A stretch of DNA of 64,000 bases from Cinclus cinclus (Eukaryota; Chordata; Aves; Passeriformes; Cinclidae), in contig NC_085081.1 of NCBI RefSeq assembly GCF_963662255.1, positions 1 to 64,000 of the forward strand. The letters run 5' to 3'. The notes below the pieces were generated by a model. The model saw nothing but the letters and a program-made list of their open reading frames with translations. It was not told the origin of the DNA and did not search any database. Positions 322 to 64,000 of this stretch are shown here, in pieces (the first letter of the stretch is position 1; each line of letters begins with the position of its first letter). The position numbers and the translations under genes are program-made.

Positions 322-3300
322 CACCCCCGCCCTTCCCCCCCCCGCCCGCCCCGCCCCTCCCCCAAGCCCCCCCAGAAGGTCAAGGCCGCCATCGCCACCA
401 TCCCGGTGGGGGGAGGGGAGGGGCTGCTGCCCCGCCCCCCGCCCGACCCGCCCCGCCCCCCCTCCGCCGGACCCCGCCCCTCCCCCCCTCCTCCTCCTCC
501 TCCCCTCCCCCCCCCCGCTCCCCCCTCCCCCTCCGCCGGCGACTGGGACGCCGCCGCCCCTCCCCCGCCTCCCGCCGACCCCCCCTGCCCCTCCCCCAGC
601 GCCGAGGCCTGGAGCCAGCGGGACCCCGTGGGGGAGGGGCCGCCCAGCCCCGCCCCCCCCGACCCGGTGAGTGACCTCCCCCTCCCCCCACAACCTCCCC
701 TCCCCCTCCTTTTTAATCGCCTCGTTAATTAACCCGCGCTCCCCTCCCCCCACCGCAGGCCGAGCGCTGGGCCCCGCCCCCCGAGGCCCCGCCCCCCGCC
801 GGCCCCTCCTCCGCCCCCTCCCCCCCCGCCGCCCCTCCCCCTCCCGCCCCTCCCCCCGCCGAGGGAGGGGCCAAGAAGGCGAAGCTGCGCCCCCCCCCCC
901 TGAAAAAAACCTTCGACTCCGTGGACAGGTGAGGGGGGAGGGGCGGGGGGAGGGGCCGCGAGCTCTGCCGAGTTTTGGGGGATTTTGGGGGAAATTTTGG
1001 GATCATTTGGGGAGGTTTTGGGGGGATTTTTGGGGTGATTTTTGGGTGATTTTTGGGGAGTTTGTGGGGGGGGGTTTTGGGGGTTTTTGGGGTTCTTGGG
1101 ATGATTTTTGGGGAGTTTTTGGGGTGGGTTTTGGGGGTGGGTTTTGGGGGTTTTTGGGGTGGGTTTTGGGGGTGTTTTTGGGGGGTTTTTGGGGTGGGTT
1201 TTGGGGGTGTTTTTGGGGGCTTTTTGGGGTGGGTTTTGGGGGTGTTTTTGGGGGGTTTTTGGGGTGGGTTTTGGGGGTGTTTTTGGGGGGTTTTTGGGGT
1301 GGGTTTTGGGGGTGTTTTGGGGGGTTTTTGGGGTGGGTTTTGGGGTGTTTTGGGGGGTTTCTGGGGTCCCTGACACGCTCCCCACAGGGTCTTGTCCGAG
1401 GTGGATTTCGAGGAGCGTTTCGCTGAACTCCCCGAGTTCCGGCCCGAGGAGGTTCTCCCCTCCCCCACCCTGCAGGCTCTGGCCACCTCCCCCAGAACCA
1501 TCCTGGGCAGTTACCGCAAGAAACGCAAAAACTCCACGGGTCAGTGACCCCTGGGTGACCCCTCAGTGACCCCTGAGTGACCTCAAGTGACCCGAGTGAC
1601 CCCTGAGTGACCTCGAGTGTCCCTGAGTGACCCTGAGTGACCCCTGAGTGACCCCGAGTGACCTCGAGTGACCCCTGAGTGACCCCTGACCCTGAGTGAC
1701 CTCTCAGTCACCCCAAGTGACCCCTGAGTGACCCTGAGTGACCTCAAGTGACCCCTGAGTGACCCCTGAGTGACCCGAGTGACCCCTAGTGACTTTGAAT
1801 GACCCCTGAGTGACCCTGAGTGACCTCTCAGTGACCCCTAAGTGACCTCTCAGTCACCCCAAGTGACCTCTGAGTGACCCCTGAGTGACCCTGAGTGACC
1901 CCTGAGTGACCTCCCAGTGACCCCTGAGTGATCCTGACTGACCCCCAGTGACCTTGAGTGTCCCTGAGTGACCCCTGACCCTGAGTGACCTGTCAGTCAC
2001 CCCAAGTGACCTCTGAGTGACCCCTGAGTGACCTTTGACCCCTGCTGACCTCTGACCCCAGACCTGGACCCCCCTGGCGATGACCCCTCCTCCCCCAAGC
2101 GGAAGCTGCGGCGTCGCTCGAGCTGCGGCTCCGACCCCACGACCCCGAAAAGCGCCAAATGCGAGGGGGACATCTTCACCTTCGAGAGAGCAGGTGGGGG
2201 AGGGGACATTGAGGGGTGTGGGGGAGGGGACATTGAGGTTGGGGACAGCCAAATTTCGGGGAACCCTTAAATCAGGATCGTCTCTAATTTGGGGATTTTT
2301 TTTTTTATTTATTTATTTTTTTTTTTTCCCCTTCCTGGTCCGGTCTGGGGGTTCCTGAGGTGGGGGGCAGGGCTCTGGGGGTTTTTTTCCTCTCCCCCCT
2401 TTTGGGACCCCCCCCCCCTCTGACGGAGTTTCCTGCAGGGGGGGAGGGCGAGGACGTCCTGGGGGAACTCGAGTACGACAAGGTCCCGTTCTCGTCCCTG
2501 CGCCGCACCCTGGACCAGCGCCGAGCTCTGGTCATGCAGCTCTTCCAGGAGCACGGCTTCTTCCCCTCGGGTGAGCCCCCAAATCCCCCGAAATCGCCCC
2601 AAAAGTGGCCCTGAGTTATCCCAAAATCACCCCAGAGTTATCCGTGAAATCGCCCCAAAACTGGCTCTGAGTTATCTCAAAATCACCCCAAAATCCCCTG
2701 AAATCGCCCCAAAACTGGCCCTGAGTTGTCCCAAAATCACCCCAGAGTTATCCGTGAATTATCTCACCATTTCCTGTGAATTACGCCTTTATTAACCGTG
2801 AATGACCCCAAAGCCACCCCGGAATTATCTGTGAATTATCACAGGATTACCCCAAAATCACCCCACGATTATCTGTGAATTATCCCTGATCCATCCCCAT
2901 TTATCCCCAATTTATCCCTGATTTATCCCTGAATTATCCCTGAATTATCCCTGAATTAGCCCGATTTATCTCTGATCCATCCCCGATTTATCCCCTATTT
3001 ATCCCTGATCCATCCCCGATCCATCCCCGATTCATCCCTGATTTATCCCCGATTCATCCCTGATCCATCCCTGATTTATCCCTGATCCATCCCCGATTCA
3101 TCCCTGATTTATCCCTGATTTATCCCTGAATTATCCCCGATTTATCTCTGATCCATCCCCGATTCATCCCTGATTTATCCCCGATTCATCCCTGATCCAT
3201 CCCTGATTTATCCCTGATTTATCCCTGAATTATCCCTGAATTATCCCTGATTTATCCTGATTCATCCTGATTTATCCCTGATTTATCCCCGATTTATCCC

Positions 3301-64000: not shown

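Follow-up and report, generated by a model that had tools for sequence, protein, structure and literature searches.

The window, by which we mean the whole stretch of 64,000 nucleotides of Cinclus cinclus DNA that was analysed, holds a compact gene cluster, and arrays called by TRF make up 62% of it. The + strand carries the 3' end of CIC, RPS19 and CADM4, and the - strand carries PHLDB3, ETHE1, XRCC1 and SMG9. The gene models were built by eye, by reading translations, and comprise 42 introns, 30 of them at least 200 nt long. The names CIC and PHLDB3 are putative and agree with those in an earlier note on this DNA. An additional + strand exon lies at 29027-29164, on the far side of PHLDB3; we take its cysteine pattern to resemble that of Ly6/uPAR proteins. 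For the other five genes, comparison with PDB or Pfam supports the identity: the SMG9 model matches PDB 6l54 with 459 bits (no Pfam family matched the SMG9 protein), ETHE1 matches 4chl with 315 bits, CADM4 matches 5zo1 with 435 bits, RPS19 aligns to a PDB relative and carries Pfam S19e, and XRCC1 is supported by its BRCT domains (PDB / Pfam). The repeat pattern and the gene content together suggest that the window lies on an avian dot chromosome.

Tandem arrays are present in all 30 introns of at least 200 nt, with a median coverage of about 0.89; those that begin at splice sites, or that bear on the argument below, are collected in Table 1. Among 155 non-redundant arrays, 46 have a period of 10-11 nt (33% of array bases) and 23 a period of 20-22 nt (21% of array bases), which is close to the length of a single and of a double helical turn of DNA. 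The introns also have a polarity in the sense direction: across the 30, the mean GC skew is +0.12 in the first 100 nt and -0.11 in the 100 nt that precede the last 40 (p 0.002).

Table 1. Intron arrays discussed in the text, with their positions in the window and the strand of the listed feature.
Feature	Positions	Strand	Remarks
CIC intron array, unit AGTGACCCCTG, family A	1543..2034	+	begins at +4 of donor 1539; TRF
RPS19 intron array with 9 copies of acceptor and exon head	5830..7353	+	source exon 7373-7556; acceptor-side exon stuttering
CADM4 intron: GGGACACTG array at donor 16331, TCTGTCCC array up to acceptor 17588	16336..17584	+	
CADM4 intron array, ACACCTGGGG type, family C	17765..18124	+	donor 17761
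CADM4 intron array, family C	18675..18859	+	donor 18673
CADM4 intron array, ACTGGGAGGG type, family B	19073..19562	+	donor 19070
CADM4 intron array, TGAGTGACACC, family A	19796..20058	+	donor 19794
CADM4 intron array, GGGTGTGACTTCCGGGAGTGG	20816..21089	+	donor 20813; half of intron filled
PHLDB3 intron array, CCCGAGTGAC, family A	37563..37664	-	donor 37665
Family A array, antisense to ETHE1 (gene on -)	41776..42438	+	intron after 42475; starts at +28, not flush
ETHE1 intron array, ACTGGGAGGG, family B	43607..44110	-	donor 44117
ETHE1 intron arrays	45325..46715	-	donor 46717
XRCC1 intron array, family B	48601..48991	-	donor 48996
XRCC1 intron array, ACACCTGGGG type, family C	49583..50291	-	donor 50300
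XRCC1 intron array, AGAGTGACCCC, family A	51817..52109	-	donor 52113
SMG9 last-intron array, GGGACTGGGA, family B	53503..54219	-	donor 54224
SMG9 intron arrays, first unit CAAACCAGTA	54388..54965	-	donor 54971; antisense family B deeper inside
SMG9 intron arrays, first unit GCATTAATTA	61628..62589	-	donor 62591
SMG9 intron array, GGGACTGGGA, family B	62844..63052	-	donor 63051; TRF call reaches 2 nt into exon

The earlier note knew of no named description of such arrays, but one exists. The available parts of Hron et al. (2026, Genome Biol Evol evag038, PMC12954441) report, under the name sequence stuttering, a local tandem expansion on chicken dot chromosomes, in which 190 of 5,572 dot introns hold copies of exon edges with the adjacent donor or acceptor, more than 90% of the cases have a source no further than 1 base from the exon border, and the length of a stuttering intron varies widely between individuals. 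In the same parts the authors infer a local origin of the repeat clusters and leave the mechanism open. The arrays of the window are a form of sequence stuttering: here too introns are filled with local imperfect tandem arrays, and a subset of them holds copies of exon edges. The published screen requires at least 20 nt of exon, and the accessible portions of the paper hold no comparison of donors with acceptors. A related description is that of Beauclair et al. (2019, BMC Genomics, PMC6792250), which, in the passages available, deals with GC-rich chicken genes, several of which have introns and flanks made only of tandem motifs. The likeness lies in these tandem-motif introns and flanks, with G-quadruplex motifs; the difference lies in the question, which is why such genes are missing from assemblies, and in passages that do not speak of anchoring at splice sites.

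Fifteen donors had been singled out in the earlier note as places where an array begins at or close to the 5' splice site. All 15 read as GT donors with an array nearby; the array starts 0-8 nt past the donor at 14 of them, among these SMG9 63051, where it extends into the exon by 2 nt. The table of gaps does not list SMG9 54224, whose array ends at 54219. Since these donors were hand-picked, the 30 introns serve as the general test, the 12 of the 42 introns shorter than 200 nt being omitted from the gap tests. Also omitted from the counts are the donor of the PHLDB3 exon at 34137, which lacks a GT in a consistent frame, and the final intron in each of SMG9, ETHE1, XRCC1 and RPS19, the end exons being outside the models used for counting. 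The donor side of SMG9 54224 was added to the count of GT copies, to the pairwise alignment (where its end also counts as a tail), and to the leader and register tests described below.

In the 30 introns the median gap is 4.5 nt from the donor to the first array base, and 20.5 nt on the acceptor side. In 18 introns an array begins no more than 6 nt from the donor, and in 6 one ends that close to the acceptor. When the unrepeated bases are redistributed at random inside each intron, a null that contains no sequence model, 6.9 donors are expected and none of 2,000 simulations reaches 18. The claim that array starts lie closer to donors than shuffled positions do thus holds. The excess persists across four TRF settings (P <=0.002), and is smallest with lenient scoring, at 20 of 30 versus 14.1 (P 0.002). 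In the 13 introns that are at most 85% filled, 8 donors and 1 acceptor have an array within 6 nt (null 1.0), and acceptor gaps of 94-288 nt occur. A profile free of TRF, in which 16-mers are scored against their own intron versus other introns, takes the form of a step at donors: the excess is -0.1 to 1.1 where the 16-mer starts in the exon, 4.4 at +1, and 5.5 to 7.0 beyond. At acceptors the rise is gradual, the excess being 1.8 at the boundary and 5.6 at a distance of 40 nt.

The paired difference between donors and acceptors is borderline (Wilcoxon p 0.05 with default TRF, 0.009-0.18 with other settings or subsets). Once 6 nt are allowed for the donor signal and 20-40 nt for the acceptor signal, the asymmetry is not significant: p is 0.60-0.84 with default TRF, 0.18-0.93 for all introns under the other settings, and 0.36-0.72 for the 13 introns at most 85% filled. 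We also considered that the acceptor gap might be predicted by the pyrimidine content of the last array; this is rejected, the two being independent (rho -0.20, p 0.29).

Stop codons have been compared in the same way. Three of the seven lie no more than 12 nt from an array, which for XRCC1 is a 23-nt TRF call overlapping the stop codon; the other four are 167-924 nt off. At 33465 an array starts immediately past the stop codon read as that of PHLDB3, where there is no donor, and at 53420 units resembling family B (defined below), uncalled by TRF, stand directly 3' of the SMG9 stop codon. Flush repeats, then, do not need a donor.

We now turn to the donor itself, which the earlier note held to be part of the repeat unit. 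The homology between donor flank and repeats ends at about +3. In the 24 of 30 introns with unit copies, extending these copies leftwards gives an identity of 0.68 at +7, then 0.59, 0.73, 0.44 and 0.51 at +6, +5, +4 and +3; it falls to 0.28 at +2 and 0.22 at +1, and is at background in the exon. Positions +3 to +6 do match the unit (0.53, versus 0.30 in random register; p=0.0004, 23 introns). The 15 named donors have 226 unit copies, with G at +1 in 50 (74 expected) and T at +2 in 50 (42 expected), both expectations being based on composition; the complete GT is kept in 3, versus 11.8 expected from the frequency of GT, and one of these three is the XRCC1 exon copy discussed below. None of 23 introns has GT in at least 30% of its copies. 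The donor as repeat unit is consequently rejected, both GT and exon tail being missing from the copies. A leader common to all introns fares no better: the mean identity over +7 to +26 is 0.287, versus 0.283 in shifted controls. This leader comparison also took in XRCC1 51406, XRCC1 48374, ETHE1 41614 and the exon at 29164 from the donor side. Among its 918 between-gene pairs, only 12, some of low complexity, have at least 9 of 12 bases identical, and in 11 of these both introns are longer than 100 nt; random anchors give 2.1.

These figures bear on the view that the arrays were seeded from donors, by slippage or break repair that copied the exon end, the copies later losing a GT that made them harmful extra donors. 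The proximity to donors, far above chance, and the match at +3 to +6 both favour it; for several donors there is a unit copy that departs from them in a single base at +1 or +2 (such as CT or GG for GT), and the share of copies with GT is 1.2% versus 4.3% (paired p 0.0045, 23 introns). However, a simulation in random register leaves the deficit of GT non-significant (P 0.11), so that active purging is not demonstrated, and copies one base off GT are not in excess (P 0.27). Exon bases are left uncopied, and units are common to several genes, so that many of them probably originated elsewhere than at the donor beside which they now lie. The proximity in the earlier claim thus stands, and the seeding falls in most introns, XRCC1 50300, a true copy of a donor, being the exception; as a general account we consider it unlikely. 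Seeding at R-loops would predict a G-rich sense strand at donors; such a skew is rejected, the first 100 nt being G-skewed in 16 of 30 introns. Intron gain by tandem duplication is another process in which the duplicated DNA carries splice-site bases. There, in the part of the source available (PMC4974935), a new intron arises, whereas here existing introns expand.

The same note expected the introns to be left with many functional-looking donors. With donor and acceptor scores based on consensus frequencies, and a cut-off of at least 6 bits, 14 of its introns hold 4 sense sites, versus about 23.5 expected under a first-order Markov model; their antisense strand holds 67. For these introns the measured limits argue against abundant decoy donors. 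Two introns outside that list, SMG9 59277 and SMG9 56617, contain 57 and 70 decoy sites, and the 30 introns together have 156 sense and 140 antisense sites, versus 70 under the Markov model. There is no overall deficit because these two introns and RPS19 5566 are rich in sites; the idea that decoy donors are depleted throughout, and so prove selection, is therefore rejected.

Far from each array being a different sequence, as had been stated, 12 of the 20 donor-flush arrays have units in common, across six genes. When donor-proximal stretches are aligned locally, the 99% null is exceeded by 32 of 465 pairs in sense-sense orientation and by 10 in sense-antisense; intron tails give 20 and 18, and heads versus tails 47 and 39 of 930. 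For consensus units of different genes aligned with a score of at least 26, the donor side yields 21 of 424 pairs sense-sense, one of them a poly-T pair, and 3 sense-antisense, against 1.1 for shuffled units; the acceptor side yields 7 and 4 (null 3.0). The unit-sharing tests include SMG9 54224 and XRCC1 51406 on both sides, with provisional intron ends at 53503 and 50700. In the orientation test, units shorter than 5 nt were removed, a score of at least 20 was required, and orientation was flipped at random per array. The flush arrays then form 17 sense-sense and 0 sense-antisense pairs, with a flip-test P of 0.0019 in which each array, not each family, is taken as one unit, the shared pairs not being independent. 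Donor-side arrays as a whole give P=0.006. Acceptor-side arrays show no orientation bias (6 versus 6); those within 25 nt form 2 sense-sense and 0 sense-antisense pairs (P 0.25).

The shared units fall into three families, whose seeds were chosen after viewing the pairwise alignments. Family A (GAGTGACCCC) is flush in CIC, CADM4, PHLDB3 and XRCC1, family B (ACTGGGAGGG) in CADM4, ETHE1, XRCC1 and, twice, SMG9, and family C (ACACCTGGGG) in CADM4 and XRCC1. Sense members further from the donor are found at PHLDB3 36729, SMG9 61247, ETHE1 46717 and ETHE1 45089. The antisense members are at ETHE1 42475, SMG9 54971, SMG9 59277 and in RPS19, and none starts less than 10 nt from its donor. With 12 of 20 flush arrays sharing units within 64 kb, the origin of the repeats may be local on the scale of the chromosome rather than of the intron, whereas the expansions of PMC12954441 are called, in the parts available, strictly local. 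In the literature listed, which comprised titles and abstract openings and left most subscription journals outside its coverage, no description of donor-flush arrays or sense-oriented unit sharing appeared, bar that of Hron et al. on copied exon edges; we did not find sense-oriented unit families common to several genes described before.

Such orientation could mean that arrays near donors are kept by selection as intronic splicing enhancers, which act in sense. All flush arrays with common units are in sense, the purine content of the sense strand is 0.56 in the first 100 nt versus 0.43 near the intron end (p 0.0005), and families B and C contain G-runs. The four flush arrays of family A, however, are likewise all in sense, yet this family carries C-runs instead; the flush arrays also seem longer than an enhancer would need. 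We judge this explanation improbable. It is still harder to believe that the arrays gave rise to the donors, with a GT gained by a unit next to the exon and then adopted as 5' splice site: the donor hexamer of PHLDB3 37665, GTGACC, does fall within the unit GAGTGACCCC, and many donors are unusual (GTCAGT, GTACTG, GTAATT), but SMG9, ETHE1, CADM4 and RPS19, with their exons joined, match their PDB relatives with few gaps, so that large boundary shifts are not seen at the level of these whole alignments. That TRF edges, the hand-picking of examples or the assembly produced all of this as an artefact is scarcely credible, for although TRF extends array edges and the first list of donors was selected, the effect holds in 30 introns, under four TRF settings and in the TRF-free profile, with the mirrored acceptors as control.

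Copies of exons inside introns were sought with blastn-short at the cut-offs of PMC12954441, at least 20 nt and at least 42.1 bits, over 49 exons and 42 introns, with these cut-offs as the only filter. Copies of an exon edge with its splice site occur in 2 of the 42 introns, XRCC1 50300 on the donor side and RPS19 before 7373 on the acceptor side; shuffled introns give 0 matches. The XRCC1 copy, 49686..49772 on the - strand, is an exact 87 nt (141 bits), namely 71 nt of exon end and the donor with 16 nt of intron, from a source at 50284-50370; it enters at GGGGG and leaves inside the array motif CACCTGGG. The RPS19 intron gives 10 matches, the weakest of 42.1 bits, and contains nine copies of the acceptor and exon head, eight of which have common differences from the exon. 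The one at 7101 matches the exon over 56 nt and therefore looks recent. Short matches to the array unit mark the entry or exit of the XRCC1 copy and of most RPS19 copies, a pattern that suggests capture while repeats exchange with one another; the copy at 7101 has no clear unit match at its exit from the exon. As a further observation, the nine RPS19 copies (5865-7303) carry, about 40 nt after the acceptor, a donor-like site AG/GTGTGG, and each is thus a possible pseudo-exon.

A coding exon of CADM4 also contains a repeat, at 17637-17689, with a period of 21 nt, 2.5 copies and the frame preserved; the protein has seven extra residues there compared with the PDB CADM4 chain. Because the period is that of many intron arrays, repeat growth seems to reach coding sequence in CADM4, whereas in the available parts of PMC12954441 no repeat block extends into exons.

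The reading that we favour, and hold to be somewhat probable, is that stuttering arrays are limited by selection at splice signals and exchange units between introns. Stuttering would have overrun nearly all intron DNA on which selection has no hold. At the donor, selection would hold the exon and GT firmly and +3 to +6 loosely, so that arrays come to an end some 2-6 nt into the intron; at the acceptor it would hold the pyrimidine tract and AG, so that a distance of about 20 nt typically remains. Units would pass, probably through exchange, from one intron to another among neighbouring genes, and in rare cases array units would exchange with a short exon match and so capture an exon edge with its splice site, as in XRCC1 and RPS19. 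Several results sit uneasily with this reading. The acceptor gap lacks the dependence on pyrimidine content that constraint would predict, the stop codons give mixed support, and the exit of the RPS19 copy at 7101 speaks against capture at unit matches. Constraint alone accounts neither for the sense-only sharing of flush arrays nor for the donor bias in part-filled introns, and the length of the signal does not obviously predict the wide acceptor gaps of the latter.

A bolder possibility, rather doubtful at present, is that stuttering spreads from donor to donor: GTGAG, common to most donors, would let repair or replication switch introns in the sense of transcription, and so plant the same families of 10-11 nt units flush at 5' splice sites in genes that are unrelated and lie on either strand. 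Were this true, the splice donor would be a landing site for minisatellites, its own GT left behind. Whatever the mechanism of stuttering, a newly named form of instability, the measured limits constrain it: arrays stop at about +3, GT is not copied, flush arrays share units across genes in sense only, and unit lengths lie near 10-11 and 21 nt.
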